Below, one piece after another: positions 1-19,948 of a DNA stretch of 25,240 nt. The notes under the pieces are model-generated. The model had not been told where the DNA came from and did not search any database. It saw only the letters and a program-made list of their open reading frames with translations. The translations under genes were made by a program, and so were the position numbers. Source of the stretch: a virus; IMG/VR virus record IMGVR_UViG_3300044952_000726, positions 1-25,240 of that record. One strand, 5' to 3'. The number at the start of each line of letters is the position of its first letter. The stretch's first letter is position 1.

Positions 1-120
1 CCAACACGTCGGTCAACGCGGACAGGCCGCCATCAAGCTTTTCATCGTCCATCATGTTCTCCAAGTTCGTCACTTTCTCCACCCTCGGCGGGCGGCCTGC
101 CTGTTACCTGGGCGTTAGCC
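1..120 (+). mobile_element. attC-like site A (integron cassette recombination site), left end cut by the window
   Basis: An imperfect palindrome whose left arm contains CAACACGTCGGTCAACGCGG and whose right arm ends in GGCGTTAGCC. The inner arms pair over CAGGCCGCC (positions 22-30) and GGCGGCCTG. The left arm has one extra A (GGACAGG against GGCAGG on the folded right arm), the extrahelical base that gives canonical attC sites their orientation. The R' box is GTTAGCC at 114-120, so recombination would fall between G114 and T115. At about 120 bp it is within the usual attC range. The stop codon of the leftward gene at 42-440 lies in its central loop. The first two bases of the R'' box would lie outside the window. 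Confidence 0.75.
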
Positions 121-440
121 GTCAATTCCGCCAGTGCTACGCGGTGGATTCGTGTCGCCCACCAGTCAGGGTCGCCAATCACAGTACCTTCCGGCATCTC
201 TCGGCGCAGCCATGCGTGCAGTCCCTCGCCGCTTGCCGTCCTACCAGCGTCGACGTTTAACAGGTGCTGGTTTGCCACGACAAAAGCCTCCTGCACTGCC
301 TTGTCAGCCAGCACAACCCGCGCATACCCTTCAATGGCATCCAGCATTTCAAAGGTGTGGTACCCGCCAATCAGCCCGCATTTCTTGGCAATCTCAAGCA
401 GGTGGTTTCTGCTTATTCCTTCTGGTGCATTCGTGTGCAT
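42..440 (-). CDS. hypothetical protein of an attC-flanked cassette
   Basis: A 132-residue soluble protein with no family that I recognise. It looks like true coding sequence: mixed polar and hydrophobic composition with predicted helices around residues 12-75 and a Trp-rich patch near residue 92 (DPDWWATRIHR). A GGAG ribosome-binding site lies 6 nt before the ATG. The start is only 23 nt from attC-like site B, and the stop lies inside site A, so the last 25-30 residues (from NAQVTGRPP onward) are encoded by recombination-site DNA. It is leftward, opposite to the orientation of the attC sites but in the same direction as the phage early operon to its right. The function is unknown. Confidence 0.7.
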   Translation of the reverse strand: MHTNAPEGISRNHLLEIAKKCGLIGGYHTFEMLDAIEGYARVVLADKAVQEAFVVANQHLLNVDAGRTASGEGLHAWLRREMPEGTVIGDPDWWATRIHRVALAELTANAQVTGRPPAEGGESDELGEHDGR

Positions 441-463
441 TTCTGTCTCCGTTGTTCTCGCCG

Positions 464-525
464 GCTAACCCGGCGCTCAAGCGGGATCGTCCGCAAGCGG
501 CCGGCCCCTTAGCTCTGCGTTATGC
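464..525 (+). mobile_element. attC-like site B
   Basis: A 62-bp imperfect palindrome from GCTAACC (464-470) to GTTATGC (519-525). The left arm CTCAAGCGGGATC pairs with the right arm GGCCCCTTAGC, and the left arm again carries one extra A (GGGA against GGG). The outer boxes fit the attC consensus RYYYAAC and GTTRRRY, with one mismatch in the R' box. The layout is close to the Vibrio VCR halves as I remember them. The expected recombination point is G519/T520. The stop codon of the leftward gene 477-791 lies within the left arm. Confidence 0.78.
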
Positions 526-791
526 GTCAGGCCGCCGGTCAGTTCCAGAAACCGCCTGTCGTCCTCTGCCGTCATCCCATCTGCGAAAGTCGGCGCTGGC
601 GAGACGGCGGGTTCTTCGTCGTAAATCGGTTTCCCGCAGCTATCGCACTGGTTCCAGTCCGTTTCCTCAATGCTGTGGCCCGTGGTGCAGTTGCAAAACG
701 GTTCGTCGCCTTCTTCGTCTTCCTGCATCATCAGCCACTCTTCGTCATAGTCCTCCGGTGGCGGCTGTGCGCCTATTGCGCTTGGCCCCAT
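477..791 (-). CDS. acidic zinc-ribbon-like hypothetical protein, C-terminus encoded by attC
   Basis: A 104-residue acidic protein. Residues about 33-57 hold a C-x-C and a C-x2-C pair (CNCTTGH and CDSCGKPIY), which suggests a small zinc-binding ribbon of a kind often seen in phage accessory proteins. It starts after a strong GGAGG site 8 nt from the ATG and lies 1 nt after the upstream gene 793-999, so the two are probably cotranslated. The final residues NAELRGRPLADDPA are read from attC-like site B in reverse. A 25-bp stretch inside the gene (585-609, coding for VSPAPTF) is repeated in inverted orientation in the small cassette at 1477-1501. The function is unknown. A DNA-, RNA- or protein-binding role is only a guess from the cysteines. 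Confidence 0.72.
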   Translation of the reverse strand: MGPSAIGAQPPPEDYDEEWLMMQEDEEGDEPFCNCTTGHSIEETDWNQCDSCGKPIYDEEPAVSPAPTFADGMTAEDDRRFLELTGGLTHNAELRGRPLADDPA

Positions 792-792
792 C

Positions 793-999
793 TCAACGGC
801 CTCCTTCTGTAATTAAATCTATTGTCTTTGCAACGTCATCACACCAGTCACCGACATTTAATTCCTTGCCGGTGTCAAGCACGATGCACGTCCCGTGATT
901 TCCGTTGTAGTCGATTGGGTAGAAGTGAGTGATTCGCTCGGCTATTAGCGTCACTCCGCGACTGCCAACACCATAACCTTTGAATGTGATCGGCGTCAT
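793..999 (-). CDS. hypothetical protein (68 aa)
   Basis: A short, mostly beta-type protein (MTPITFKGYGVG start), with no family that I recognise. I chose the ATG at 999 over the longer frame that begins at 1041. It overlaps the stop of the upstream gene as ATGA and has GGGAG 6 nt before it, which is the coupling style of this whole leftward gene set. It is followed after 1 nt by the zinc-ribbon gene. The sequence VLDTGKELNVGDWCDDVAKTI is compatible with a small DNA- or RNA-associated fold, but nothing decisive is visible. Confidence 0.62.
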   Translation of the reverse strand: MTPITFKGYGVGSRGVTLIAERITHFYPIDYNGNHGTCIVLDTGKELNVGDWCDDVAKTIDLITEGGR

Positions 1000-1364
1000 A
1001 TTGGCTCCCATTGTTTTGGTGCTTTCGGTAGCGGCATCCAATGCGTCGGTACGCTAGAGTAATTCCGCTTCACCCTCTCAATATGCCGATGGTTGAGCAT
1101 CAAACTAATCCAAGGGTTGTCTGGCTGAAACCCGCTTTGGAACGTCGGGGTGTAACACGCAACCCAAACACCGTCTTCGTTGCCAACCATCAAATACCTG
1201 CCGTCTTTAGGGGCCGTGTCGATTTGCTGCCACTTGTCGAACTTCACTGCTTGCAGCGCCCACCTCTTCGCGTCAGCCTTGTGGTATTCCACTTCGTCGC
1301 GCAGTCGGTGAATCTCTGCCGCGCACTCGCCGTGCGGGTCGCCATCAGGTTGTTCATCAAACAT
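996..1364 (-). CDS. DUF551-like phage protein
   Basis: A 122-residue protein. After an N-terminal helix (about residues 13-40) comes the pattern WQQIDTAPKDGRYLMVG, and near the end PTHWMPLPKAP. These two blocks are the signature of the DUF551 family of small phage and prophage proteins of unknown function. An AGGA site lies 6 nt before the ATG and the start is 22 nt from attC-like site C, so it is the first gene (in leftward sense) of the three-gene segment between sites C and B. It overlaps the next gene by 4 nt. The family assignment rests on motif recall, not on a search. Confidence 0.75.
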   Translation of the reverse strand: MFDEQPDGDPHGECAAEIHRLRDEVEYHKADAKRWALQAVKFDKWQQIDTAPKDGRYLMVGNEDGVWVACYTPTFQSGFQPDNPWISLMLNHRHIERVKRNYSSVPTHWMPLPKAPKQWEPI

Positions 1365-1386
1365 CTCTCATCCTTTCATCAAATAC

Positions 1387-1454
1387 GCATAACACGTCGC
1401 TCAACGCGGACGCAGGCGATAAACCCGCCTGCGCCGGTGACTTTTGCGTTAGCA
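1387..1454 (+). mobile_element. attC-like site C
   Basis: A 68-bp imperfect palindrome from GCATAAC (1387-1393) to GTTAGCA (1448-1454). The inner stem is a perfect 7-bp pair, GCAGGCG and CGCCTGC, around an ATAAACC loop. The left arm TCAACGCGGACGCAGG has the extra A relative to the folded right arm, as in sites A, B and D. The left half shares AACACGTCG and TCAACGCGGAC with site A and differs from site D by one base. This strong left-half conservation is typical of sites from one integron lineage. The expected recombination point is G1448/T1449. Confidence 0.8.
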
Positions 1455-1463
1455 GGCAAAAGC

Positions 1464-1517
1464 ATGTCGCCCTGCACCGCCGTCTCGCCAGCGCCGACTT
1501 TTCAAAAAAACTGCTAA
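1464..1517 (+). other. possible 17-aa rightward mini-ORF of a 121-bp cassette
   Basis: Between the recombination points of sites C and D (1449-1569) there is no normal gene. The only rightward frame with an AGG-type upstream site encodes MSPCTAVSPAPTFQKNC. Its TAA stop coincides with the TAAC of site D, as is common for genes carried in the forward orientation by integron cassettes. Positions 1477-1501 are a 25-bp exact inverted copy of 585-609 within the gene at 477-791, and both copies are read as AVSPAPTF in their own sense direction. It could be a remnant of a larger cassette gene or non-coding DNA. Confidence 0.2.
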
Positions 1518-1575
1518 CACGTCGCTCAACACGGACTGGCGATAATGCCGCCAGCCGGTTAGCTAGGCGTTAGAA
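1513..1575 (+). mobile_element. attC-like site D, junction with the phage operon
   Basis: A 63-bp imperfect palindrome from GCTAACA (1513-1519) to GTTAGAA (1569-1575). The stem CTGGCG pairs with CGCCAG around a short loop, and the left arm shows the same extrahelical A (GGACTGG against GGCTGG). The predicted recombination point G1569/T1570 coincides with the stop codon (TAA on the minus strand, 1570-1572) of the first gene of the phage leftward operon. I found no further attC-like site to the right in this window. Confidence 0.8.
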
Positions 1576-1809
1576 CCCCGCAAAACCGTCTTGAGCCTTT
1601 GTCCATTTCTCACGCTCAGCCTTCGCCCATTTGTCTGCCTCTTCTTTGCTACTTGCGATGCGCGCTTTCCAGACATCCATGCGCGTCAGCGTGTCGCTTT
1701 CAGCGTCATAGTGGTAATCCGCGCCGTTGAATTTGCAGCCACCGTAGTGGCGCGCAATGCTCAACTGGGTCTGGCTTACGTGGTAAATGCGTTCGGGACG
1801 TTCATTCAT
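1570..1809 (-). CDS. hypothetical protein (79 aa), last gene of the phage leftward operon
   Basis: A charged 79-residue protein with a long C-terminal helix (residues about 48-75, rich in Lys, Glu and Ala). I placed the start at the ATG at 1809 because it overlaps the stop of the upstream gene as ATGA and has GGAG 8 nt upstream. The longer frame to 1896 has shadow-like composition in its extra part. Its stop codon is formed by the R' box of attC-like site D, so its 3' end lies exactly at a predicted cassette junction. No family recognised. Confidence 0.68.
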   Translation of the reverse strand: MNERPERIYHVSQTQLSIARHYGGCKFNGADYHYDAESDTLTRMDVWKARIASSKEEADKWAKAEREKWTKAQDGFAGF

Positions 1810-2063
1810 ACGCTCAACTCCATCTGATATGGCGGCACTTCGCCTTTGAATGGCTGATACCAGTCTGCCGGGACAAGCCGCGTGCTGTTCAGCCATGAGT
1901 CATGCGGTTCTGGTTTTCCGCTCAGCAGTCGGATCGCGCGGGCGCTTATCAATATCGTTCCACCTGGTTGCATCGGTCCGATGTCGACGACCTTCCACAC
2001 GTAGCCTCGGCCTTCGCAATGGCCGAGTGCATTCATGAGCAGATCACCCGGGCGGTACTTCAT
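1806..2063 (-). CDS. hypothetical protein (85 aa)
   Basis: An 85-residue protein starting MKYRPGDLLMNALGH. The pattern is short beta-strands with many Gly and Pro residues (YVWKVVDIGPM, GGTILISARAIRLL), which suggests a small beta-barrel-like fold. No family recognised. It overlaps both neighbours by 4 nt (ATGA), so translation is likely coupled along the operon. Its function in the phage early region is unknown. Confidence 0.68.
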   Translation of the reverse strand: MKYRPGDLLMNALGHCEGRGYVWKVVDIGPMQPGGTILISARAIRLLSGKPEPHDSWLNSTRLVPADWYQPFKGEVPPYQMELSV

Positions 2064-2314
2064 AGCGTGGCGCGCAGCTCGTCGACGCTGCCGCCCATCT
2101 CCAACCAGTGGCGCACCCAGCCCGGTTTCATGCCTTTGCCTGTCCAGGTCATGACGTGACCGGATTTGTTCATCAGGCAGTAAAACGGCATGCCTGGCTT
2201 CACCAATCCACGTTCGCGCAACCGCCGCTGATTGTCAGCAGGCAGGAACGGAAGTGCGCGTTGGCCGGGGATGTACTCCCGGTGATCCAGTTGCAGTTCA
2301 AGCTGTGACGACAT
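2060..2314 (-). CDS. small H-NS-like C-terminal-domain protein
   Basis: About 84 residues. The C-terminal part reads TWTGKGMKPGWVRHWLE, which resembles the DNA-binding core of H-NS family nucleoid proteins (a Trp-Ser/Thr-Gly-x-Gly-x-x-Pro-x-Trp pattern). The N-terminal oligomerisation coiled coil of true H-NS is missing, so it may be a stand-alone DNA-binding domain or an H-NS antagonist. I preferred the ATG at 2314, which has a weak GAG upstream. An alternative ATG at 2332 adds six residues and has no visible site. It overlaps the Lar-like gene by 17 nt and the next gene by 4 nt. The H-NS link is inference from the motif. Confidence 0.68.
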   Translation of the reverse strand: MSSQLELQLDHREYIPGQRALPFLPADNQRRLRERGLVKPGMPFYCLMNKSGHVMTWTGKGMKPGWVRHWLEMGGSVDELRATL

Positions 2315-2480
2315 CGCTTGCTCTACGATCATTCCAAAAGCTGATCGCCTCCATCACTGTGCCAACGATTGGGCCAATTGCACGGCACTCCGGGCAATCG
2401 ATAGCAAACTCACCGATACCGACCTCATCGATCTCGACTTCTTCGTTGCCACAGAACGGGCAGGGTTTGATGGTAATCAT
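2298..2480 (-). CDS. Lar-like restriction alleviation protein
   Basis: A 60-residue protein with CPFCG near residue 7, CPEC near residue 30, a GPIVG turn and a final AISFWNDR block. This is the compact zinc-ribbon layout of the Lar family. In the Rac prophage, Lar modulates type I restriction-modification so that unmodified DNA is less restricted. I chose the ATG at 2480 because it overlaps the upstream stop as ATGA, and the longer frame to 2603 is antisense shadow of the 356-residue gene. An early leftward location fits a role just after DNA entry. Many Lar-like proteins have not been tested, so the function is by family only. Confidence 0.78.
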   Translation of the reverse strand: MITIKPCPFCGNEEVEIDEVGIGEFAIDCPECRAIGPIVGTVMEAISFWNDRRASDVVTA

Positions 2481-3547
2481 GCCGCTTGCTTCCATTCCAC
2501 CGAGCGCGCCGCTTCGCCGAAAATACGCACCACCACCGCGCGGGCGGCGTGGCCCTGGTCTATGCGCGCCATCGCCACAGCCTGGGCGATGCGGACATCG
2601 CAACCGGCGGCGAGTTCTTCGATTTCGGTCAGGTCGGCGCTGTCGATCAGCAGCAGCGCCAGGCGGCCGGGCTGAACTGTTTCCGGGTTGGAAACTGTTG
2701 ATTGAGCAGGCACATCGGCCAAATACGCTTTGATGCAGGGGATGAGTTCATCCCGATGCTCAACATCAAGCAGTTCTTCCAGATCGGCCAGCAGATCGCC
2801 GGCAATGCGGTTGTATGCCAGCGCCTCGCTCAACGAGGCTTCCAAATCCTCTACCCGGCCGGAAAGCGTTGCGTTTGCCATGGCCAGCAGCTTGGCATCG
2901 GGTTCAGGCATCGCTTCTTCGCGCGCCTCCCGTTCGCTATTTGCCGGTTTTTCATCTTGGGGTGCAGCTGGGGATTGTTTCGTGACCGCCGCACTCATCA
3001 CATGCGCGCCGACCTGCTTATCCCGATCCCCTCCGGCAGCAGAAACATCCTCATCCCAATCCGCCGCTTGATTCGGCGTCATGTAATGCGATGCGCCATC
3101 GTGTTTTTTGACGATCACATCCCCCTTGCGCACCAGCGTTTCCAGCAGCCCCGGCACGTTCTTCGCCGGAATATTGGCGCCGGTGGCGCGTGCTTTTTCC
3201 GCCAATGCTGCCCCGGCAATGGGGCCATGCAGCAAGATGAGGCGGTTCAATAAACTGTTTTTCGGTTCTGATGACATGCTGATTTCCTCTATGGATGGTG
3301 CGGTGATGGGTTTCAGGCCGGTTGGCCAGTAGACGTTCTGCGTCACGCCTTCGCGGGTGTGGCGCATGTGGCTGATCAGACGCGCATCGATCAACTGTTC
3401 CAGCGCGTCGTGCACGGCATCCGGCGGCGTGGTGCGGTTAAACGCCCCCAGAATGGCGGACTGGGCAATCGGGCGCAGGCTGCTGTGCGGCTGGATGCGC
3501 GCATAAACTTCAGCCGCCAACGGGTTGATGTCGCTGTAGCGGCTCAT
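2477..3547 (-). CDS. large early-operon protein, possible winged-helix DNA-associated protein
   Basis: At 356 residues this is the largest gene of the leftward operon. Residues about 1-75 look like a winged-helix segment (AILGAFNRTTPPDAVHDALEQLIDARLI), and a similar arrangement recurs at about 95-155 (LVRKGDVIVKKHDGASHYM). Then comes a low-complexity linker (about 160-215), a predicted coiled coil (about 222-262) and a helical C-terminus rich in Ala and Ile. It could belong to the DUF1627-type prophage proteins, but I cannot confirm that. It overlaps both neighbours by 4 nt. The two wing-like segments suggest DNA binding or regulation, which is inference. Confidence 0.72.
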   Translation of the reverse strand: MSRYSDINPLAAEVYARIQPHSSLRPIAQSAILGAFNRTTPPDAVHDALEQLIDARLISHMRHTREGVTQNVYWPTGLKPITAPSIEEISMSSEPKNSLLNRLILLHGPIAGAALAEKARATGANIPAKNVPGLLETLVRKGDVIVKKHDGASHYMTPNQAADWDEDVSAAGGDRDKQVGAHVMSAAVTKQSPAAPQDEKPANSEREAREEAMPEPDAKLLAMANATLSGRVEDLEASLSEALAYNRIAGDLLADLEELLDVEHRDELIPCIKAYLADVPAQSTVSNPETVQPGRLALLLIDSADLTEIEELAAGCDVRIAQAVAMARIDQGHAARAVVVRIFGEAARSVEWKQAA

Positions 3548-4005
3548 GCGGCCGCCCTTTCTGCCAGCGGCGCGTTGGCCATGCCCAGCTTCTCCGGCGT
3601 TTGGTCATTGATGCGGCCGACAAAATCCACCGCATAACTCAGCATGCCGGAGTTCACGCGCATCAGCAGCGCATCGGACAGCGTCACCGCGCGGCGGATG
3701 CAGAGCATTTCCGGGCCGCTGAAGCCCCATTTGTCGGTAGACAGGTAACGCCGATCTGCGCTCACCAGGGCGTATTTGGCCGCGTCGATTGCGTCGCGTG
3801 TTTCCTGCGCCGCGCCGACCATGCGGTTAGCGCAGACACCGACGATGTTCAGATATGCCGCCAGCGTGTGACGGTGGTAAATGCTACCCGCGCCCAATTC
3901 AATGGCGTCGAGGGCGATGTGCGCCGGCAGGACGATGGCGTCGCGTTGCTGGCGTAGCAGCAGCGTGCCGGGGATGTAGCGGCGGCGGGTGGTGTGCTTT
4001 TTCAT
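3544..4005 (-). CDS. hypothetical helical protein (153 aa)
   Basis: The protein has a basic N-terminus (MKKHTTRRRYIPGTLLLRQQRDAI), followed by long Ala-rich helices (HIALDAIELG, RMVGAAQETRDAIDAAKYAL). No catalytic motif or membrane segment is visible. The basic start is compatible with nucleic-acid contact but not diagnostic. It is coupled by ATGA overlaps to the genes on each side, so it is a core member of the early operon. No family recognised. Confidence 0.68.
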   Translation of the reverse strand: MKKHTTRRRYIPGTLLLRQQRDAIVLPAHIALDAIELGAGSIYHRHTLAAYLNIVGVCANRMVGAAQETRDAIDAAKYALVSADRRYLSTDKWGFSGPEMLCIRRAVTLSDALLMRVNSGMLSYAVDFVGRINDQTPEKLGMANAPLAERAAA

Positions 4006-4472
4006 GGCCGCGCGCCGGTGAGTTTGCCGACGATCTTGCCGGCGATCTGCGATTGATGGCTACCGGGTCGCACCCGCTCGCCGTCGATGTAGATACAGGT
4101 CGAGCGGCCGCGATTCAGCACCGCGCTGGTGATCTCCACGCCGTAAATCTCGCGCATCGATTTGCGCCGGCGTGCTGCCCGTTGCGCCGGCGTTTCGGCC
4201 GCCGGACGGGGCCGGTTCTTGCCTGGGCCAATGGCGTAGATGGGACTTGGCTCGCCGCGCCCATTGATCCGCCAGGCCGTGATATGCACCACGCCAGACG
4301 CAAGTAAAACCCGCTTGGTCAGCGCATGCGCATAACCGCGCTGGATGTACAGCGCATCCGCCATTTCCACCGCCGTGGCCGGGCCTTTGCAGGCCAGATG
4401 CTCAAGCATGCGCAGACAGGCCGGCGAGGTATGCCAGCGGATGGTTTCGGTGCCGGTGCGGTAGAGGCTCAT
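4002..4472 (-). CDS. putative HTH-containing phage protein (156 aa)
   Basis: A 156-residue protein starting MSLYRTGTETIRWHTS. Residues about 18-55 (ACLRMLEHLACKGPATAVEMADAL) have the helix spacing of a winged or MarR-like helix-turn-helix. Residues about 98-115 are very Arg-rich, and the end has a short beta segment (STCIYIDGERVRPGS). I chose the ATG at 4472. It overlaps the stop of the 41-residue gene upstream as ATGA and follows a GGGGG site. The longer frame to 4694 is antisense shadow in its extra part. A DNA-binding role is inferred. Confidence 0.66.
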   Translation of the reverse strand: MSLYRTGTETIRWHTSPACLRMLEHLACKGPATAVEMADALYIQRGYAHALTKRVLLASGVVHITAWRINGRGEPSPIYAIGPGKNRPRPAAETPAQRAARRRKSMREIYGVEITSAVLNRGRSTCIYIDGERVRPGSHQSQIAGKIVGKLTGARP

Positions 4473-4594
4473 GCGGCCCCCATCAACCGCCAAACGCGGC
4501 GCGGAATCGGGGCAGTCAAGTCCGGGCGGTACAGGTTCAACTGCCAGGCGCGGTACAAAACCCCCTTGAACACCAGCAGGTTTGCGCGGTTCAT
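4469..4594 (-). CDS. 41-aa hypothetical microprotein
   Basis: A very short gene with one of the best ribosome-binding sites of the operon (GGGAGGA, 6 nt before the ATG). It overlaps both neighbours by 4 nt: its stop forms ATGA with the gene at 4472, and its start forms ATGA with the stop of the 50-residue gene. It encodes a basic, aromatic peptide (MNRANLLVFKG start, RVWRLMGAA end). The exact fit between neighbours is strong evidence that it is translated. It may be a functional microprotein or mainly a translational coupler. Confidence 0.62.
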   Translation of the reverse strand: MNRANLLVFKGVLYRAWQLNLYRPDLTAPIPRRVWRLMGAA

Positions 4595-4743
4595 AAGGTG
4601 TCCTCCCAGCGCTGATAGTGCTGCTTAGGGTGCGGTTTGCGCGGTGGACGGTCGGTCGGCGGGGCAAGAAACAAGGCGATGTAGACCAGGCCAATCAGGC
4701 AAGCCAGCGCCACACTGATGGCGATGAGGCTGGCGTGTTCCAT
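4591..4743 (-). CDS. 50-aa single-pass membrane protein
   Basis: Residues 5-27 (LIAISVALACLIGLVYIALF) form one clear transmembrane helix. A short Pro/Lys/His-rich cytoplasmic-type tail follows. I placed the start at the ATG at 4743, where it shares one base with the TAA stop of the upstream gene (TAATG). The stop overlaps the 41-residue gene by 4 nt. The longer frame to 4971 is shadow sequence. Small early membrane proteins of temperate phages sometimes act in exclusion or membrane perturbation. No specific function can be assigned here. Confidence 0.62.
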   Translation of the reverse strand: MEHASLIAISVALACLIGLVYIALFLAPPTDRPPRKPHPKQHYQRWEDTL

Positions 4744-4955
4744 TACGCCGCCTCCGGGGTATTGGCCAACGAATTTGCCAACACGCGGCGCAGGCGCACC
4801 ACGGTGGCGGATTCGCGGGCATTGCGGGCCGGGCGCACGGTCAAGGCGCGGTTGCCTGCAACCAGAATGCCGCCAGTCTGGCGCGCGATTTGTCCAGCCA
4901 GGGCAATGGCGTCCTGACCGTGGCGGAATAGCTGGGTTGGGATGTGGATGGTCAT
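4743..4955 (-). CDS. hypothetical protein (70 aa)
   Basis: A 70-residue basic protein starting MTIHIPTQLFRHGQDAIAL. It has an amphipathic helix at about 12-25 and an Arg-rich helix at about 40-60. No family recognised. Its first five residues and the DNA around its start resemble the 10-codon ORF at 5393-5425 (MTIHI), which may be a decayed duplicate of this start. It overlaps the upstream gene by 4 nt and the next one by 1 nt. Confidence 0.65.
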   Translation of the reverse strand: MTIHIPTQLFRHGQDAIALAGQIARQTGGILVAGNRALTVRPARNARESATVVRLRRVLANSLANTPEAA

Positions 4956-5158
4956 GCTGCCTCCAACTCATTCAAAAGCTGGATAAGTTCGGGCGGCGCC
5001 GGCAGCACCTCCACATCATTCAGGCGGATGATGTCCCGGTTACTGGTCAGGGCAACGCCCTGTTTTTCCCAGATATACAGAATTCGATGAACAGCGCTTT
5101 TGCTTTGTCCAAACTGGCGGTAAAAGACGCTGTCTCCAACTTTGAGTGTGTTTGCCAT
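4952..5158 (-). CDS. hypothetical protein with SH3/KOW-like pattern (68 aa)
   Basis: Begins MANTLKVGDSVFYRQFGQSK and continues with short strands (VHRILYIWEKQGVAL, NRDIIRLNDVEVLP), a layout often seen in small beta-barrels that read nucleic acid or mediate protein contacts. I chose the ATG at 5158, with GGAG 9 nt upstream, because the frame further upstream (to 5362) is shadow of a rightward gene. Its start codon and the start codon of the opposing rightward gene share the bases CATG. The ATGA overlap at 4952-4955 couples it to the next gene. Confidence 0.67.
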   Translation of the reverse strand: MANTLKVGDSVFYRQFGQSKSAVHRILYIWEKQGVALTSNRDIIRLNDVEVLPAPPELIQLLNELEAA

Positions 5159-5384
5159 GACTGATGACTCCAATAAAATTGATGAACTGATTGCGGCCGT
5201 CAACAATCTGGCCGAACTACAAACAACGCATCTGGGCAATATTGCTGATGCGCTCAACCGGATCGGCACCCATCTGCAGTACCTGGGCACGGGCGATAAA
5301 CACACGCCAGGCGCGGTGGAACACTTGGCCATCACCATCGAGCAAGCGGTTGGCCGCATCATTGCCGCGCTGCCGGACGAGTAA
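5157..5384 (+). CDS. hypothetical helical protein, lone rightward gene within the leftward operon
   Basis: Encodes 75 residues with heptad-like hydrophobic spacing (IDELIAAVNNLAELQ, IADALNRIGTHLQYLG), then a TGDKHTPGAVEHLA turn and a final helix. The composition is clearly protein-like. A leftward frame over the same bases (59 codons from 5396, preceded by GGAGG) is the main alternative, because codon-position GC does not separate the two. I prefer the rightward frame for its helix periodicity. The ATG at 5157 lies on the palindrome CATG shared with the divergent leftward start. A TTG at 5142 is possible. No family is assigned. Confidence 0.58.
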   Translation: MTDDSNKIDELIAAVNNLAELQTTHLGNIADALNRIGTHLQYLGTGDKHTPGAVEHLAITIEQAVGRIIAALPDE

Positions 5385-5392
5385 CCCCGGTT

Positions 5393-5425
5393 TCATGCGG
5401 CCTCCTGCAGGATGTGAATGGTCAT
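5393..5425 (-). other. 10-codon ORF with strong ribosome-binding site
   Basis: MTIHILQEAA, preceded by AGGAG at 6 nt. Its start overlaps the stop of the 51-residue gene as ATGA. Its own stop overlaps another ATG (5394-5396) that also has GGAGG upstream and opens the 59-codon leftward frame discussed at 5157-5384. It may be a leader peptide, a translational relay, or the decayed beginning of a copy of the gene at 4743-4955, which also starts MTIHI. Confidence 0.35.
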
Positions 5426-5577
5426 GCCGGACTCCTGATCGATGATTTAAGCCGGTAGTCACCGCCGAAGCGGCTGGAAACCACGGCGGTGTTGTGCCAC
5501 GGGGCGGGGTGCTTTTTGCCGTAGTGGTGCAGCAAGCCTTTGAGCAGTACGGCGCTGATTTTTTGCGTGTTGGTCAT
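5422..5577 (-). CDS. 51-aa hypothetical protein, first gene of the leftward operon
   Basis: Starts MTNTQKISAVLLKGLLHHYG and continues KKHPAPWHNTAVV. It is a small basic protein with no recognised family. A GGGGAG site lies 6-7 nt before the ATG. It is the promoter-proximal gene of the left operon. The leader of about 175 nt between the proposed promoter (5761-5789) and this start contains a perfect 8-bp hairpin just upstream of the ribosome-binding site. Confidence 0.62.
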   Translation of the reverse strand: MTNTQKISAVLLKGLLHHYGKKHPAPWHNTAVVSSRFGGDYRLKSSIRSPA

Positions 5578-5594
5578 GTTCGACTCCCCTCTCC

Positions 5595-5613
5595 GCGCGG
5601 CACCATGCCGCGC
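5595..5613 (-). promoter_or_regulatory. leader hairpin upstream of the leftward operon
   Basis: A perfect inverted repeat: GCGCGGCA (5595-5602), CCA, TGCCGCGC (5606-5613). In the leftward transcript it ends about 18 nt before the ATG of the first gene and directly precedes its ribosome-binding site. It has no U-run after it, so it is not an intrinsic terminator. It could control translation or serve as an antitermination (nut-like) signal. That role is inferred from position only. Confidence 0.45.
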
Positions 5614-5760
5614 CTGCCTGTCGGTTACTCGGCTGTTTGTGAAGTGCGCCCGCTCGGGGTGGCCAGCCTTTGGCCTGCTCCCGGCCGTCCTGCGGGCCTG
5701 TCAGCGGGTGTGGGTGCTGCCGGTCGCTGAGGGTGTCCGCTGGGGGCGGGGAGTGATTGC
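5614..5760. other. transcribed leader region without a gene
   Basis: About 150 bp of GC-rich sequence between the left promoter and the leader hairpin. It has a small inverted repeat around GGCCAGCCTTTGGCC and no convincing reading frame. It is probably 5' leader of the leftward operon. Confidence 0.4.
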
Positions 5761-5789
5761 ATTAAAGCACGCTTCACAATAAACGTCAA
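5761..5789 (-). promoter_or_regulatory. putative left early promoter (PL-like)
   Basis: On the minus strand, TTGACG (5784-5789) and TTTAAT (5761-5766) are separated by exactly 17 bp, a good sigma-70 match. It points into the leftward operon. Just upstream (5790-5800) lies GTAAAGCTTTG, which shares the GTAAAG half-site found repeatedly in the CI/Cro control region at 7418-7487, so repression by the phage repressor is plausible. Confidence 0.6.
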
Positions 5790-5841
5790 CAAAGCTTTAC
5801 TTTTTAGGCGCAATCGCGCCGTGGCCGGTTGGCGTTTCCGG

Positions 5842-5879
5842 TTTATCGCAGTTTGCTATTTATCGCGGTTTGCGATAAA
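5842..5879 (+). promoter_or_regulatory. putative HigA operator upstream of higB
   Basis: A 15-bp direct repeat, TTTATCGCAGTTTGC (5842-5856) and TTTATCGCGGTTTGC (5859-5873), differs at one base and is phased by 17 bp. The second copy runs into a perfect inverted repeat, TTTATCGC (5859-5866) and GCGATAAA (5872-5879), with a 5-nt spacer. It ends 8 nt before the toxin ATG. Type II toxin-antitoxin operons are normally autoregulated at such sites. Confidence 0.6.
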
Positions 5880-5887
5880 TTGAGGGT

Positions 5888-6172
5888 ATGCACATCATCA
5901 CCCACAGCCGCATCCTCCAGGCGCAGGCGGCGCACCCGGATAGCACAACAGCGCTGGAGCAGTGGTACAGGCAGACCAAGCGGGCCGCCTGGCGCAACTT
6001 CGCTGAAGTCAAGGCGATGTTCCCGGCGGTGGACAAGGTGGGCGACAAGTACGTGTTCGATGTGGGGGGCAACAAGCTGCGGCTGATCGCCGCCATTCAC
6101 TTCAACGCGGGCAAGGTGTTCATTCGCGCCGTGCTCACGCACAAGGATTACGACAAAGGAGCCTGGAAATGA
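5888..6172 (+). CDS. higB: HigB-type toxin (mRNA interferase)
   Basis: 94 residues. It contains a WYRQTKRAAWRNFAEVKAMF segment (about 26-45), then KVGDKYVFDVGGNKLRLIAAIHF and KVFIRAVLTHKDYDKGAW. This is the typical order of the HigB toxin family, which has a RelE-like fold and cuts mRNA on the ribosome. The ending YDKGAWK is characteristic of that family. The gene order toxin first, antitoxin second is the hallmark of higBA. It overlaps the antitoxin start by 4 nt (ATGA). A repeated operator lies just upstream. The pair may stabilise the prophage or act against competing phages, which is inference. Confidence 0.87.
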   Translation: MHIITHSRILQAQAAHPDSTTALEQWYRQTKRAAWRNFAEVKAMFPAVDKVGDKYVFDVGGNKLRLIAAIHFNAGKVFIRAVLTHKDYDKGAWK

Positions 6173-6573: not shown

Positions 6574-6598
6574 GCAGGTCAGGCCGTTGGAATGGCGA

Positions 6599-6934: not shown

Positions 6935-7015
6935 GCGGCGCGTATAACTTTCGCCATATTTACCCCGGCGGGTTGAGGCGATAGCCTGCCCGCGTGCGCC
7001 AGTCCGCGAGTGAAA

Positions 7016-7417
7016 TTACCGGGCATGGTTTGCGTTGGCGCGGGGATATTGCTCAACCAACTGGCTGGCCACGCCCACCAGGCGGGCGAGGCCGGTGCGG
7101 TCCATGCGCTGCACGAGGGCGAGCAGTTCGGCCGTGAGCGGGTCCGGCGGCGGTGTTAGGGTGGCGACGTTGGCGGGCGGGTTGGGCTGGGTAATTTTTG
7201 CAATGAACATTTCCCCATCGCCGTTCATTACCCAGTCTTGATTTACGTCGCGTGATTTTCTGAGTGCATTCAAGGCATCGCGTTCTGGGGTGGATAGTCC
7301 CCGCTCCCATTGAGATACGGCCGACTTAGACAGCCCGCCAGCCCATACACCAATCTGGGATTGTGAAACGCCAAAGTGGGCACGTAGTGCCCGCAGCCGA
7401 TCTGCGATAGTTTCCAT
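7016..7417 (-). CDS. CI-like phage repressor (XRE family, no protease domain)
   Basis: 133 residues. The N-terminal helix-turn-helix covers about residues 5-60 (LRALRAHFGVSQSQIGVWAG, LSKSAVSQWERGLSTPERD). After NQDWVMNGDGEMF comes a Pro-rich linker and a short helical C-terminus (about 100-130) probably used for dimerisation. There is no LexA-type Ser-Lys peptidase domain, so induction is not by RecA-stimulated self-cleavage. I chose the ATG at 7417 because the N-terminal extension to 7507 reads through the control region. No ribosome-binding site precedes it and TAATCT lies 7 nt upstream, which suggests a leaderless transcript. It is divergent from the Cro-like gene. Confidence 0.82.
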   Translation of the reverse strand: METIADRLRALRAHFGVSQSQIGVWAGGLSKSAVSQWERGLSTPERDALNALRKSRDVNQDWVMNGDGEMFIAKITQPNPPANVATLTPPPDPLTAELLALVQRMDRTGLARLVGVASQLVEQYPRANANHAR

Positions 7418-7487
7418 CGCGTAAAGATTACTTGCCGTAAAGAGAAGTCGTGTTGACTCTTTAGGTAAAGCAGGCTTTACTATCGGC
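7418..7487. promoter_or_regulatory. CI/Cro operator-promoter region
   Basis: A 70-bp divergent control region. GTAAAG half-sites occur at 7421, 7437 and 7465. A perfect site GTAAAG-CAGG-CTTTAC spans 7465-7480, and CTTTAG is at 7459. The rightward promoter is TTGACT (7453-7458), 17 bp, TTTACT (7476-7481), only 6 nt before the cro ATG. The leftward promoter has TAATCT (minus strand, 7425-7430) 7 nt before the repressor ATG and no good -35. The perfect operator covers the rightward -10, so binding there would block cro. Confidence 0.65.
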
Positions 7488-7727
7488 ATGAAAGTTAATG
7501 CCCTCATATCAAAATTCGGCAGCGCAGCGAATTTGGCACGGATAGCAGGTGTATCCCGCCAGGCGGTGTCCCAGTGGGATGACGACCTCCCCGCCGACCG
7601 CGTGCTGTCCGTGTCGCGCGCGACTGCCTGGCAGGTGACGCCGCATCAGCTCCGCCCAGACATCTACCCCAACCCCACCGACGGCCTGCCGCCCGACGTG
7701 GCTGCGCAACAAAAGGCGGCCGCATGA
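7488..7727 (+). CDS. Cro-like transcriptional regulator
   Basis: 79 residues. The helix-turn-helix lies at about 8-32 (FGSAANLARIAGVSRQAVSQW), followed by LPADRVLSVSRATAWQVTPHQLRPDIYP. This is the pattern of YdaS/Cro-type proteins that occupy the cro position of lambdoid prophages. There is no ribosome-binding site before the ATG and the promoter -10 ends 6 nt upstream, so the message is probably leaderless. The stop overlaps the next ATG by 4 nt. It would compete with the divergent repressor for the shared operators. Confidence 0.78.
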   Translation: MKVNALISKFGSAANLARIAGVSRQAVSQWDDDLPADRVLSVSRATAWQVTPHQLRPDIYPNPTDGLPPDVAAQQKAAA

Positions 7728-14592: not shown

Positions 14593-15141
14593 ATGGGCAC
14601 TCGTGGACCGCAACCGCTACCGGCGAACGTGCATATCCTGCGCGGGAACCCGAGCAAGTTGCCGTCTGCGACTTTGTTCGATGAGTTCAAGCCTGAAGTC
14701 GAAATCCCCAGCTCGCCGTCGTGGATCTGGCCCGAGGCAAAGAAAGAGTGGAAGCGCCTGACCGCCGAGCTACTGCGCTACGGCCTGGTGTCGAAACTCG
14801 ACCGCGCTGCCCTGGTGCTGTACGTACAGGCCTGGGCAAAGATGGTCTGGGCCGAGAACATGCTGAGCAAAGCCATGGCCGCTGCCGAGGAAAAGCGCGC
14901 CGCCGCCGAAGCGGCGGGCGAGGAATACACCGGCGGCGACGGCATCATGATCCGCACCGCCAACGGCAACTTCACCTACTCGCACCATTGGGTGGTTGGA
15001 CGCCGCGCTGCCGAGGATGTGAACCGCTACCTGGCGCTGTTCGGCCTCTCTCCGGCCAGCCGCGCTCGGGTCACCACCAGCGACAACCGCCAGGCCAGCC
15101 TGTTTCAGGATGCCGGGCAGGACAAATGGGGCGCGCTGTGA
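14593..15141 (+). CDS. terminase small subunit (P27 family)
   Basis: 182 residues. The N-terminal block MGTRGPQPLPANVHILRGNP is the characteristic start of P27-family small terminases. A helical middle (WPEAKKEWKRLTAELLRYGL, LDRAALVLYVQAWAKMVWAE) follows, and the end has NRYLALFGLSPASRARV. It recognises the packaging site and delivers DNA to the large subunit. It sits between the HNH gene and the large subunit, the standard order. Confidence 0.9.
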   Translation: MGTRGPQPLPANVHILRGNPSKLPSATLFDEFKPEVEIPSSPSWIWPEAKKEWKRLTAELLRYGLVSKLDRAALVLYVQAWAKMVWAENMLSKAMAAAEEKRAAAEAAGEEYTGGDGIMIRTANGNFTYSHHWVVGRRAAEDVNRYLALFGLSPASRARVTTSDNRQASLFQDAGQDKWGAL

Positions 15142-16865
15142 TCGACCCCAGCGCCACCCACTTCACCGACATCGCAACCGCTTATGCGGCCGATGTCGTT
15201 GCCGGGAAAATCCCCGCCTGCAAGTGGCACCGCCTCGCCTGCCAGCGTCACCTGGACGACCTCGCCCGCACCGACTTCCGCTACACCTTCAACCCGGAAT
15301 TGGTCGACAGCAAGGGAAAAGCCTACCGCCCGGCGGAACGGATTTGCAAGTTTGCCGAGCTGATGCCGCACATCAAGGGCGACTGGGCCGCACGCAGCCA
15401 GTCAATCACCCTCGAACCGTGGCAGATATTCATCCTCGCCAGCGCTTTTGGCTGGGTGGACCGCATCACCGGCAAGCGCCGCTTCCGCGTGGTCGACCTG
15501 TTCGTCCCACGTAAAAACGCCAAGTCGACTCTGGCCAGCGTCATCGGCTTGTACATGCTCGCCGTCGACGACGAATTCGGCGCTGAGGTGTACTCCGGCG
15601 CCACCTCGCAAGACCAGGCGCTGGAAGTCTTCCGCCCCGCCTTGCTGATGGCACGCGCCACGCCGGGCTTCCGCGCCACGTTCGGCGTCACGCCCAACGC
15701 CAGCAACCTCAGTGTGGTCGAGACCAACAGCAAATTCGAACCGGTGATCGGCAAGCCGGGCGACGGCGCGTCACCGAGCTGCGCCATCGTCGACGAATAC
15801 CACGAACACAAAACCGCCGAACTGTATGACACCATGCAGACCGGCATGGGCGCGCGCTCGCAGCCGATGATGCTGGTCATCACCACATCCGGCAGCGACA
15901 TTTCCGGCCCGTGCTATCAGCACCAGGTGGAGCTGCAGAAAATCCTAGAAGGTGTCATCGAAAACGACCAGCGCTTCGGCATCATCTTCACCGTCGACGA
16001 AAAGGACGACTGGACCAGCGAAGAAGCGTTGCGCAAAGCCAACCCCAACTTCGGCGTTTCGGTCGATGCCGAATTCCTGCGCACTCAGCAGCGCGACGCC
16101 ATCGCCGACCCGCGCAAGCAGAACGTCTTCAAAACCAAGCACCTCGACATCTGGGTTGCCGCCGCCTCGCCCTGGATCAACCTGCACGCCTTCCAGCAGG
16201 CCGGCGACCCCAGCCTGAAGCTAGAAGACTTCAACGGCGAATCCTGCGTCATCGGCCTCGACCTCGCCAGCAAACAGGATATTGCCAGCGCCGTCTGGCT
16301 GTTCAAGCGCCCTGGCACTGAGGTCGGCAAGCCGCATTACTACGCCATCAGCCGCAACTTCGTGCCAGGCGATGCTGTAGAAAAACCAGAAAACGCCCAC
16401 TACCAAGCCTGGGTCAATGCCGGTTACCTGGTGGCCACGCCCGGCAACATGATCGACCTGACCCAGATAGAAGAAGAAATCCTCGCCAGCTCGGAAACCG
16501 TCGTCGTTTCCGAAGTCGCCAAAGACCCCTGGGGCGGCCAGCAGCTCGGCGCCAACCTCGCCGCCGAAGGCTTTCAAGTGGTCGACATCCCACAGCAAGT
16601 GCGCTACCTCAGCGAGCCGATGAAAGAGATACAGGCGCTGGTCGACGCCGGCCGCTTCCACCACGACGGCAACCCCGCCTTCGTCTGGATGTTCAGCAAC
16701 GTCGAAGTCAAGGAAGACCGCAACGAAAACATCTTCCCGCGCAAGTTACGCCCGGAAAACAAGATCGACGCCGCCGTCGCCACTGTGGTGGCAATGAACC
16801 GCGCCATGGTCAGCATCGCCGAATCCGACATCAACGACTTCTTGGATAACCCCATCTTCGCATGA
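15138..16865 (+). CDS. terminase large subunit (HK97 type)
   Basis: 575 residues. The ATPase domain has the Walker A variant FVPRKNAKSTLAS (about residues 124-136) and Walker B CAIVDEYHEH (about 215). The nuclease domain has GLDLASKQDIAS, DPWGGQQLGANL and KIDAAVATVVAMNRAM with conserved acidic residues. The gene powers DNA packaging and cuts concatemers. I chose the GTG at 15138, which overlaps the small-subunit stop as GTGA. An ATG at 15126 adds four residues and is a real alternative. Confidence 0.93.
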   Translation: MIDPSATHFTDIATAYAADVVAGKIPACKWHRLACQRHLDDLARTDFRYTFNPELVDSKGKAYRPAERICKFAELMPHIKGDWAARSQSITLEPWQIFILASAFGWVDRITGKRRFRVVDLFVPRKNAKSTLASVIGLYMLAVDDEFGAEVYSGATSQDQALEVFRPALLMARATPGFRATFGVTPNASNLSVVETNSKFEPVIGKPGDGASPSCAIVDEYHEHKTAELYDTMQTGMGARSQPMMLVITTSGSDISGPCYQHQVELQKILEGVIENDQRFGIIFTVDEKDDWTSEEALRKANPNFGVSVDAEFLRTQQRDAIADPRKQNVFKTKHLDIWVAAASPWINLHAFQQAGDPSLKLEDFNGESCVIGLDLASKQDIASAVWLFKRPGTEVGKPHYYAISRNFVPGDAVEKPENAHYQAWVNAGYLVATPGNMIDLTQIEEEILASSETVVVSEVAKDPWGGQQLGANLAAEGFQVVDIPQQVRYLSEPMKEIQALVDAGRFHHDGNPAFVWMFSNVEVKEDRNENIFPRKLRPENKIDAAVATVVAMNRAMVSIAESDINDFLDNPIFA

Positions 16866-18106
16866 GCCTCCTAACCCACATTGCCGGCTGGTTCCGTTTC
16901 GGCGGCCTCGCCCTGGGCGACCGCAGCGGCACGCAACTTTCCGCGCCATCGTCAGCGCTGGTGTCAGACACGCGCAGCAGCGGCGCGGATGGCGCGTTGC
17001 AGATCAGCGCCGTGTGGGCCTGCGTCCAGGTCATTGCCGCCACCATCGCCAGCCTGCCGCTGTTCGTCTACCTGGAGAAAGGCAAAGGCCTGCGCGACCT
17101 GGCGCGTGATAGCTCGCTGTGGACCCTGCTGCACGAATCGCCAAACCGGCTGATGACGCCGATCGAGTTCTGGACCGCCATCATCCTCAACCTGCTGCTG
17201 CGCGGCAACGCCTACGCCCGCATCGACCGCGACGCCAAAGGCGAAGCCTACGCACTGACGCCGATGTCTGCCGATCAGGTAGAAATGCGCATCCTGTCGG
17301 ATGGCACGGTCGTTTATCTCTACAGCATCGGATCGGATGTTGCCGTACTGGCGGAATCCAGCGTGGTGCATTTCAAGGGCATGGGCAACGGCACCATCGG
17401 CTTGAGCCGCCTTGACTACATGCGCGCCACCACCGACGAAGCCGCCAACGCGCAGACCACGGCTAATCGGCTATTTGCCGCCGGCGGCAAGCCGACCGGC
17501 GTGCTGATGGTGGACCAGGTGCTGAACAAAGATCAGCGCGACCGTATCCGGCTCAACTTCGAAGAACTCGCTACCGCTACCACCAGCCGTCTGTTTGTGC
17601 TGGAAGCCAACATGAAATATCAGCAGGTCAGCCTGCTGCCGGAGGATATGCAACTGCTGGAAACCCGCCAGTTCACGGTCGAAGAAATCTGCCGCTGGTT
17701 TGGCGTCCCGCCGGTGATGGTCGGTCATGCCAACGTCACCACCTGGGGCAGCGGCGTCGAACAGATCCTGGATGGCTTCTTCAAACTCACCATCCGCCCG
17801 GCCATTGTCAACTTTGAGCAAGCCCTGCGCAAGCGCGTACTCACCGCCAACCAGCGCGCGCTGTACAGCGTCGAATTCAGCATTGATGCCCTGCTGCGAG
17901 CCAACATCAAAGACCGTTTCGATGTCTACGGAAAGGCCGTGCAGAACGGTCTGAAGACCCGCAACGAATGCCGCCAGCTTGAAAACGACCCGCCCATTCC
18001 TGGCGGGGACGCGCTTACCGCACAAACCAACCTTGTACCGCTCGACAAGCTCGGGCAAGTCACACCAGGAGCCAGCAATGGAACTCAAGACCCTATCGCT
18101 CAGTGA
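16862..18106 (+). CDS. portal protein (HK97 family)
   Basis: 414 residues. Typical portal blocks are present: VWACVQVIAATIASLPLFVY (about 40-60), LLLRGNAYARIDRD, VVHFKGMG, and the C-terminal stretch FTVEEICRWFGVPPVMVGHA, followed by the helical stem (IKDRFDVYGKAVQNGLKTRN). It forms the dodecameric ring at the packaging vertex. It overlaps the large terminase by 4 nt. The length is normal for the family. Confidence 0.93.
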   Translation: MSLLTHIAGWFRFGGLALGDRSGTQLSAPSSALVSDTRSSGADGALQISAVWACVQVIAATIASLPLFVYLEKGKGLRDLARDSSLWTLLHESPNRLMTPIEFWTAIILNLLLRGNAYARIDRDAKGEAYALTPMSADQVEMRILSDGTVVYLYSIGSDVAVLAESSVVHFKGMGNGTIGLSRLDYMRATTDEAANAQTTANRLFAAGGKPTGVLMVDQVLNKDQRDRIRLNFEELATATTSRLFVLEANMKYQQVSLLPEDMQLLETRQFTVEEICRWFGVPPVMVGHANVTTWGSGVEQILDGFFKLTIRPAIVNFEQALRKRVLTANQRALYSVEFSIDALLRANIKDRFDVYGKAVQNGLKTRNECRQLENDPPIPGGDALTAQTNLVPLDKLGQVTPGASNGTQDPIAQ

Positions 18107-18770
18107 TTGCGACATCAAATATGCGCAGTCTGAAGGCGCGTTCAGCGGCTACGGCAGCGTGTTCGGCGTGGTCGATGCCAAGAACGACATCATTATGCCA
18201 GGCGCTTATGCGGATGTACTGGCAGGGGACTCGTCGCCGGTTGATGTCTATGTCAACCATAACTGGCTCGATGCGCAGCTTCCGGTCGGTCGCTGGTCTG
18301 GCCTGAAAGAAGACGCGCGCGGCCTGATTGGCGAAGCCAATCTTGTCATGCAGATGCGTGGTGCTTCAGATGCCTATTGGGCGATGAAGTCAGGGCTGGT
18401 CAGTGGCTTGTCTGTCGCCATCATCCCGGACCCGAAAAGCACGGAACGCCGTTCCGATGGTGTGCGCATCATCCACCGCATCAAGGCGCTGAAAGAGATT
18501 TCCATCGTCACAGACCCCGCCAACGATCAGGCCAGAATTACTGACATAAAAGGCATCGATGAAATGCGTGAAAGCATTGAATCGCTTGAATCAATCAAAG
18601 ATTTTGAACGGCTGCTGCGCGAGGTAGGGCCGTTTAACAGGGACTCGGCAAAGCACCTTATTGCCAAAGCCCGAATGTTGTTGGCAAAGCGCGATGAAGC
18701 GGATGCCGGCGATATGAATGCAGCAGCCAACGCGAAGGCGCTTGCCCTCGCAATCAAACTATCTTCCTGA
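18078..18770 (+). CDS. prohead protease (HK97 gp4-like)
   Basis: 230 residues from MELKTLSLSDCDIKYAQ. It has GAFSGYGSVFGVVDAKNDII, a catalytic His in YVNHNW (about residue 57), and the catalytic Ser in SGLVSGLSVAI (about residue 115), with EISIVTDPAND following. This is the S78-type serine protease that matures the capsid. I chose the ATG at 18078, with AGGAG 7 nt upstream, giving a 29-nt overlap with the portal gene. The 99 nt further upstream are portal shadow. Confidence 0.9.
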   Translation: MELKTLSLSDCDIKYAQSEGAFSGYGSVFGVVDAKNDIIMPGAYADVLAGDSSPVDVYVNHNWLDAQLPVGRWSGLKEDARGLIGEANLVMQMRGASDAYWAMKSGLVSGLSVAIIPDPKSTERRSDGVRIIHRIKALKEISIVTDPANDQARITDIKGIDEMRESIESLESIKDFERLLREVGPFNRDSAKHLIAKARMLLAKRDEADAGDMNAAANAKALALAIKLSS

Positions 18771-18781
18771 AAGGAAAAACC

Positions 18782-19948
18782 ATGCCCGAAGCAATCATGC
18801 AATCCCTCGACAAGATCGAGTCCGCGCTCGAAAAGTTTGCCACCAAGCAGGATGTTGAATCGCGTATGGGAACGGTTTCCACCGATACCAAGACCGCCAT
18901 TGACAACCTCGGCATCAAGCAGCGCGAACTGGCCGACGAAATCGTCCAGCTCAAGCAGCGCGGCGCATCCCTGCCGGAAGACAAACCCGGCATGACCTCC
19001 TGGGGCGCCCAGTTCATCAAGTCCGATGAATACAAGGGCAAGCTCAACCTGGTGGCCGGCAATCGCCAATTCGGCAGCATCGGCTTTGAAGTCAAAAACA
19101 CCTTGGTTGGTTCTGATACCAACGTTGCCCCGGATCGCAAGCCCGGAATCGTGCGCGGCGCCATCTCACCGCTGACCCTACAAGACTTTTTGACCAAGCT
19201 GCCGACTGCTTCCAACGCAATCGAGTTTACCAAAGAAAACGCTTTCACCAATTCCGCAGCGGAAGCGGCGGAAGGGGCAGCCAAGGCTGAAAGTGCTTTG
19301 ACCTGGACGCTGGTGAATATGCCAATTTCTACCGTAGCCCACTGGATCAAGATCAGCCGCCAGCTCGCCGCCGATAACGTCGCTTTGGCGGCCTATGTCG
19401 ATACCAGAATGCGTTATGGCGTCAACCGGAAAGTGGAAACCCAGCTTGCATCGGGTGATGGCACCGCACCCAACATCAGTGGCATTTTCGACGCTGGCAA
19501 CTATGTAGCGCACGGCATTGCCAACGCCGCGTTGGGTTCAACGCTAAAGAAACTGGTGCTGATCCGCCAGATCATGGGCACGCTGGAAGCACAGGGCGAC
19601 ATGCCGGATGCGATCCTGTTGAACCCAGCCGACTGGGCAACGATCGAAATCGACCTGTTCACCACTGCCGCCGGCCAAGTCCGCGTTGGCGTCAATGAAA
19701 TGGGCCAGCGCACGCTGTTTGGAGTGCCGATCATCAGCACCGTCGGCGTCACCGCCGACACCTTCGCGGTTGGTAACTTCGCCCAGGCCTGCACCGTGTA
19801 CGAGCGTGAGGGCGTCATCGTGGAAATGTCGGATTCCGACTCCGACAACTTCACCAAGAACCTGATCACCATTCGCGCCGAACGTCGCCTTGCACTGGCC
19901 ACTGAACGCCCGGCCGCGATCATCGGTGGCGATCTGACCCCGGCTTAA
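18782..19948 (+). CDS. major capsid protein (HK97 fold)
   Basis: 388 residues. Residues about 1-65 are a charged coiled coil (MQSLDKIESALEKFATKQDV, ADEIVQLKQRG), the delta-type scaffold that the protease upstream removes. The HK97 fold follows: TSWGAQFIKSDEYKG, FTKENAFTNSAAEAAEGAA, STVAHWIKISRQLAADN, and the C-terminal TVYEREGVIVEMSDSDSDNF with IRAERRLALATERP. AAAGGA precedes the ATG. It is followed by a strong terminator. Confidence 0.94.
   Translation: MPEAIMQSLDKIESALEKFATKQDVESRMGTVSTDTKTAIDNLGIKQRELADEIVQLKQRGASLPEDKPGMTSWGAQFIKSDEYKGKLNLVAGNRQFGSIGFEVKNTLVGSDTNVAPDRKPGIVRGAISPLTLQDFLTKLPTASNAIEFTKENAFTNSAAEAAEGAAKAESALTWTLVNMPISTVAHWIKISRQLAADNVALAAYVDTRMRYGVNRKVETQLASGDGTAPNISGIFDAGNYVAHGIANAALGSTLKKLVLIRQIMGTLEAQGDMPDAILLNPADWATIEIDLFTTAAGQVRVGVNEMGQRTLFGVPIISTVGVTADTFAVGNFAQACTVYEREGVIVEMSDSDSDNFTKNLITIRAERRLALATERPAAIIGGDLTPA

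Follow-up and report, generated by a model that had tools for sequence, protein, structure and literature searches.

The first 1575 bases of the window, by which the whole 25,240-base stretch analysed is meant (the entire IMG/VR record), are very probably the distal portion of an array of integron cassettes lying within the leftward early operon of a temperate phage, where an anchor by the excisionase gene (xis) would exchange phage-adapted cassettes with inverted genes, the integron integrase (IntI) being supplied by phage or host and the cargo serving counter-defence. The window, a temperate tailed phage, encodes a terminase, a portal and an HK97-type capsid protein, and its relevant features are the following.

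1..120, plus strand: attC A, a long-loop site, crossover G114|T115; 31.9 bits, E 2.4e-6; its first 1–2 bases may be missing
42..440, minus strand: 132-aa open reading frame of cassette 1, stop within the neighbouring attC
115..519: cassette 1, crossover to crossover (G114|T115 to G519|T520); identical in contigs G001, G002 and L212, partly in L213
463..525, plus strand: attC B, crossover G519|T520; 53.0 bits
477..791, minus strand: 104-aa acidic protein, stop inside attC B; Zn_ribbon_ACC E 0.015, below cut-off
520..1448: cassette 2, from attC B to attC C, with three genes
793..1041, minus strand: phage protein of the phrog_7691 family, E 1.7e-9; start at 999 or 1041
996..1364, minus strand: DUF551 protein, PF04448 E 1.1e-6
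1387..1454, plus strand: attC C, crossover G1448|T1449; 40.5 bits
1449..1569: cassette 3, made up of attC D and about 60 further bases; no gene call
1512..1575, plus strand: attC D, final site of the array, crossover G1569|T1570; 60.6 bits
1570..4955, minus strand: leftward operon running into the array; the leftward genes extend overall from 4955 to position 1
1570..1896, minus strand: gene with its stop inside the attC D core site
2060..2332, minus strand: H-NS-like gene
2298..2480, minus strand: Lar restriction-alleviation gene
7016..7507: CI-like helix-turn-helix protein
14721..19948, plus strand: terminase large subunit (PF20441, 4.8e-41), portal (PF04860, 3.1e-92) and HK97-type capsid (PF05065, 5.5e-39)

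attC sites, cassettes and the phage that carries them

The four imperfect palindromes that the sequence-only reading had taken for integron attC sites are present at 1–120, 463–525, 1387–1454 and 1512–1575, all in the same orientation, and they are genuine attC sites. In a covariance model (R1) derived from 23 attCs of GTDB genome contigs, with the window left out, they score 31.9–60.6 bits (E = 8e-14 to 2e-6, filters off), well over background, the next-best match in the window reaching 8.1 bits; some of the training contigs hold near-identical sites, may be prophages and carry inverted arrays. Site D scores 60.6 bits on the plus strand vs. 7.5 on the minus strand. The same model gave 121 matches in 20 regions around IntI genes from the order of genome G019, and the attCs that it found in bacterial arrays lie in the expected direction relative to IntI; it was used in place of an arm-alignment finder that was too strict for some IntI phages. 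A search against Rfam gave no match, so that Rfam is uninformative for attC.

The left halves of the sites are near-identical, as had been read (one difference between C and D, two between A and C), and extra bases do stand at the same place of the left arm in all four, but they number three (tCaa, one before gg, and ggAc) and not the single A described earlier. The three gaps fall in identical columns of A, B, C and D in the arm alignment, giving left-arm-only extrahelical bases and hence polarity; the first and last (tCaa, ggAc) correspond to the extrahelical G20'' and T12'' of attC bottom strands. In 30 phage attCs, to which the window contributes three, the R''/L''/L'/R' arms show a base-paired fold and covariation, with a score of 0.382 vs. 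0.136 when shuffled (0/500) and 79 vs. 33 cells changed on both sides.

With four attCs within 1.6 kb and no intI, the array has the make-up of a CALIN, and none of its four genes runs along the attC direction (0/4), as those of a canonical bacterial integron would. The stop of the cassette 1 frame lies in the attC of its neighbour, so that the C-terminal tail varies with each cassette swap, and the frame is 127–137 aa long in sister contigs. As to the phage-type genes reported earlier in the array, DUF551 was recovered and the phrog_7691 protein can be added, the zinc ribbon being merely a weak match below the cut-off. The minus-strand array genes lead straight into the phage leftward operon in the gene map, as had been proposed, and this operon (1570..4955) was scanned for terminator-like sites. 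A 25-base inverted repeat, GCCGTCTCGCCAGCGCCGACTTTTC, occurs at 586–610 and 1477–1501, and many genomes of the order of G019 contain copies of 90–100% identity.

The array belongs to a temperate phage and is not a chimera. Two independent contigs from two other metagenomes, G001 (25,423 bases) and G002 (16,056 bases), align with the window at 99.99% identity over 19.9 and 15.7 kb, respectively, beginning at base 112 and passing through the cassette–phage junction; there is accordingly no misassembly at 1570, where the sequence-only reading had allowed for a contig break. Both diverge from the window at the attC A crossover, each with a different attC there, and G001 continues with a cassette gene of 66 aa, an excisionase gene (PF07825), an integrase gene of lambda type (PF00589, PF09003), and genes for a reverse transcriptase and a tail-fibre-like protein. 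Searching related phages for this junction, as proposed earlier, was productive and yielded sister contigs with excisionase, phage integrase and swapped cassettes. BLASTn of window positions 1–8000 against sequenced phages gave a match of 57 bases only, which indicates that there is no cultured close relative. No genome carrying the whole window phage was found; 46 genomes of the order of G019 match short stretches of the 1384–1700 query (attC-like and repeat parts). Elsewhere in the window, a HigB toxin/HTH antitoxin pair (5888–6573) separates the early operon from the repressor region, and an 83-base direct repeat, 90% identical, lies at 21826–21956 in the structural region.

Cassette exchange and integron integrases

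Two further versions of the window phage, L212 and L213, allow the alternative cassettes to be compared at base resolution. G001, L213 and L212 have in common a left flank (99.7–100%) that extends up to ...GTGACGTGTCTCATGCG|TT, its end also being given as ...AAAAGTGACGTGTCTCATGCG|TT, and a right flank that restarts at |TTAGCCGTCAATTCC with cassette 1; between the two lies a one-gene cassette, TTAGAGC...66 aa...attC in G001 and L213 and TTGGACG...109 aa...attC in L212. A scan for the left anchor found further contigs with 3,000 identical bases leftward and four sequences rightward, beginning TTAGAGC, TTGGACG, TTGGGCGTCACT and TTGGGCGTCAGT, and one contig that terminates at the crossover. The four left neighbours of cassette 1 have merely 3–4 bases in common to the left of the crossover, and every break between alternative cassettes in the sister genomes falls at G^TTRRRY. 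Judged by these sequence differences among metagenome contigs, from which the swaps are inferred, the slot is live, and the cassette between the attI-like anchor by xis/int and cassette 1 varies within one phage population. The conserved anchor of the window phage (...CATGCG|TT) is the cassette swap point, has no adjacent intI, and is shared with two otherwise unlike phages. The left, attI-like anchor, GGTTACGCGTCAAAAGTGACGTGTCTCATGCG|TT (L224, L226, L231), is nearly invariant across phages whose flanks are otherwise dissimilar; its sequence is not that of the attI in the IntI phages, and it may thus belong to another integrase. Separately, G021 holds at 2531–3582 (L054) a lone methyltransferase cassette without a second attC, CAGCCAGCG|TTAGC...GGCG|ATATAAACG, as if at a secondary attG-like site.

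The sequence-only reading had proposed a search for an integron integrase gene to the left of the array. As far as the window phage is assembled, no TIGR02249 match was found, G001 reaching past the array and including int, xis, the reverse transcriptase and the tail-fibre-like gene; what does lie there is the excisionase and the phage integrase, and the IntI genes appear in related phages. An intI stands beside the array in G008, G021, G039 and G040, and relatives of IntI are encoded on 25 viral contigs. G008 has its early operon in common with the window (77% DNA identity over 0.88 kb), and its IntI, at 468 bits above the TIGR02249 cut-off, sits between the cassettes and the phage integrase. 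G021, G039, G040, L055 and L056 represent one IntI phage, with flanks 99.8–100% identical and three alternative first cassettes at attI (...GTGTCGTCGAATTTAAG|TT, with the far right break at G|TTAGCAGG), and the same attI recurs in other phages with other flanks; on G039, the portal is of lambda type and the capsid of HK97 type. G008 and G021 share a C5-methyltransferase cassette at 99.8% identity, and the match stops at the cassette ends. On a bacterial genome contig (G161/L188), inverted cassettes, Dam among them, are followed by IntI, a phage integrase and then host squalene/phytoene synthase and threonine synthase genes; this arrangement is an integrated form, a prophage.

The phage IntIs form a clade with support 100/99, nested among bacterial IntIs, whose members are nine rows of phage or prophage origin together with a single row from a genome contig ending beside IntI; further phage IntIs lie outside the supported clade on long branches. 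Several divergent IntI phages (L059–L075) are without a clear R1 attC, and those contributed only the gene direction beside IntI. IntI is also common in the order searched (144/399 genomes), a likely host order. Many IntI phage contigs (L055, L056, L058, L060, L061, L062, L064 and L067) end at most about 0.6 kb from where intI begins, towards attI, which is what a variable slot that interrupts assembly would produce. The earlier suggestion that accessory genes are swapped through a host integron integrase agrees with the swapped cassettes of the sister contigs, but the host need not be the sole source, since related phages carry their own IntI; for the window phage, the enzyme probably comes from the host or a co-resident phage.

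Orientation and cargo of the cassettes

Between attCs, the 21 phage arrays have 91 genes opposite to the attC top strand and 3 along it, and the 19 bacterial arrays have 5 and 82, respectively (p = 5e-41, the genes of one array not being independent); counted per array, 20/20 phage vs. 0/17 bacterial arrays are inverted (p = 6e-11). A count from the maps, which does not depend on attC calls, has the neighbouring gene directed towards intI at 16/16 phage loci and at 2/15 bacterial ones; some of these phage loci come from sister phages. Hallmark genes of P22-like, SU10-like, HK97 or lambda type lie on the contigs of many phage arrays, and MW202573, a complete circular phage genome, has the same inverted polarity. 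The published phage TJE1, with weak attC matches, has genes in the usual direction, and inversion is thus not universal in phages. Six genome-bin contigs (L032, L033, L034, L037, L038 and L039), which are probably prophage or phage contigs, also carry attC arrays with inverted genes (14:0) and are useful for host assignment.

Since attC polarity fixes the direction of insertion, the inversion is a property of the cassette pool. Inverted cassettes would suit an operon running into intI, as in the phage, and would be silent behind the cassette promoter Pc; given the inversion relative to attC, the phage cassette genes are probably transcribed with the phage early operon and not from Pc. Against this, no sigma-70-like promoter was found upstream on the minus strand. 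The mechanism proposed accordingly places the array between the excisionase/integrase end and the early genes, where the attI-like anchor beside xis would gain and lose cassettes through integron recombination at G^TTRRRY. IntI is encoded within the same operon in related phages and would reach the window phage from its host or a co-resident phage; fixed attC polarity and inverted genes would bring each inserted cassette into line with the early operon that transcribes it, the attC bottom strand, on which IntI recombines, presumably being the coding strand of that operon.

Among 104 cassette proteins, DNA methyltransferases are represented by N6_N4_Mtase (5), Dam (2) and C5 (1), and single matches were obtained for Tad3, an Acb2/Tad1 hairpin, Mom, Lar, Ead/Ea22, SSB and RNA ligase; most of the 104 are without a Pfam match. 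To judge from the family names, the cargo may serve counter-defence, and the methyltransferases, Mom, Tad3, Acb2/Tad1-like proteins and Lar would make the exchange a trade in counter-defence genes. On G001 (L046 plus L047), a reverse transcriptase (RVT_1) adjoins a tail-fibre-like protein in which a NWNNSSSAGVWALN-type segment is repeated (L047:9256–10257 and 10932–12287), a pair that looks like a diversity-generating retroelement. Homologues occur in the IntI phages G040 and G041 and in the attC phage G055, and these phages may therefore hold two diversifying devices.

Alternative explanations and known systems

The arrangement could also reflect ordinary capture, the phage having acquired part of a host chromosomal integron, as in Vibrio anguillarum phages, and carrying it passively. 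Phage uptake of host integron pieces is documented (PMC9892861), and this type of attC is also present in GTDB genome contigs, IntI being found in more than a third of the genomes of the order searched; nevertheless, captured host cassettes would show genes along attC, the opposite of what all the scored phage arrays show, the cargo is of phage type, the phage IntIs form their own supported clade, and the slot varies inside one phage population. Host capture was rejected on gene polarity and is regarded as improbable.

Two other readings are held to be more improbable still. Were the palindromes phage repeats for another recombinase, or terminators, that merely resemble attC, the lack of IntI in the contig set of the window phage would be explained; however, their score, strand asymmetry and extra bases all fit attC, the model that detects them locates more than 100 attCs, oriented as expected, in bacterial arrays linked to IntI, the breaks are at the integron crossover, and relatives encode IntI beside such sites; this reading is considered very unlikely. 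An assembly chimera, with host integron contigs fused to phage contigs at shared repeats, draws on the repetition of the attC arms and on the several contigs that terminate near attI or an attC. Against it, position 1570 is crossed identically by two independent assemblies over 16–20 kb, L212 and L213 are unbroken from the integrase via the cassette into cassette 1, and the same arrangement is present in the circular genome MW202573 and in the prophage of a bacterial genome contig; a chimera at 1570 was rejected after the comparison with G001 and G002, and is considered most unlikely.

An exchangeable array of phage-adapted cassettes, the preferred explanation, has a partial precedent. In the text of Qi et al. 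2023 (PMC9892861) on which this comparison draws, phage CALINs and the IntI1-mediated recombination of some phage attCs with attI1 are reported, and complete integrons in prophages are viewed either as pieces taken from the host by capture or as class 1 mosaics. The CALINs described there are likewise phage attC arrays without intI and with methyltransferase cargo, and the list includes MW202573, found here with the inverted arrangement; the same portion of that paper holds no description of inverted genes, a phage IntI clade, a conserved phage attI or within-population swaps. Inverted phage cassettes are not reported in the literature searched, which comprised openly licensed papers and no preprints. 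Phage attC arrays as such are thus already published, while no description of the inverted pool, the phage IntI clade or population-level swapping was found.

The sedentary chromosomal integrons of the order of G019 have the same attC structure, G^TTRRRY crossover, TIGR02249 IntI and attI by intI, but their genes run along attC and away from intI (82:5), whereas those of the phages run against attC and towards intI (91:3). Lambdoid accessory regions (ea/b, Lar, Ead/Ea22, DUF551) have in common with the array the position in the leftward operon and overlapping gene families, and differ in that the units are here bounded by attC and differ at the integron crossover; lambdoid accessory regions vary through homologous or illegitimate recombination. 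Phage accessory regions are highly variable by mechanisms that are mostly obscure, and in the present case the variation would be site-specific, with crossovers legible at base resolution.

These data make it likely that phages keep an integron class of their own, with a dedicated IntI clade, a conserved phage attI and an inverted cassette pool, in which the inversion would tie cassettes to the early operon, isolate the pool from the bacterial one and allow counter-defence to be exchanged one cassette at a time. Gene polarity within a cassette, usually taken as fixed, would then become a testable barrier between phage and bacterial pools. Phage-defence cassettes are present in bacterial integrons, and a mirror-image phage device bearing methyltransferases, Tad3, Acb2/Tad1-like proteins, Mom and Lar would therefore be the matching counter-defence exchange, so that the intervals between inverted attCs in phage early operons may be a place to seek new anti-defence genes.
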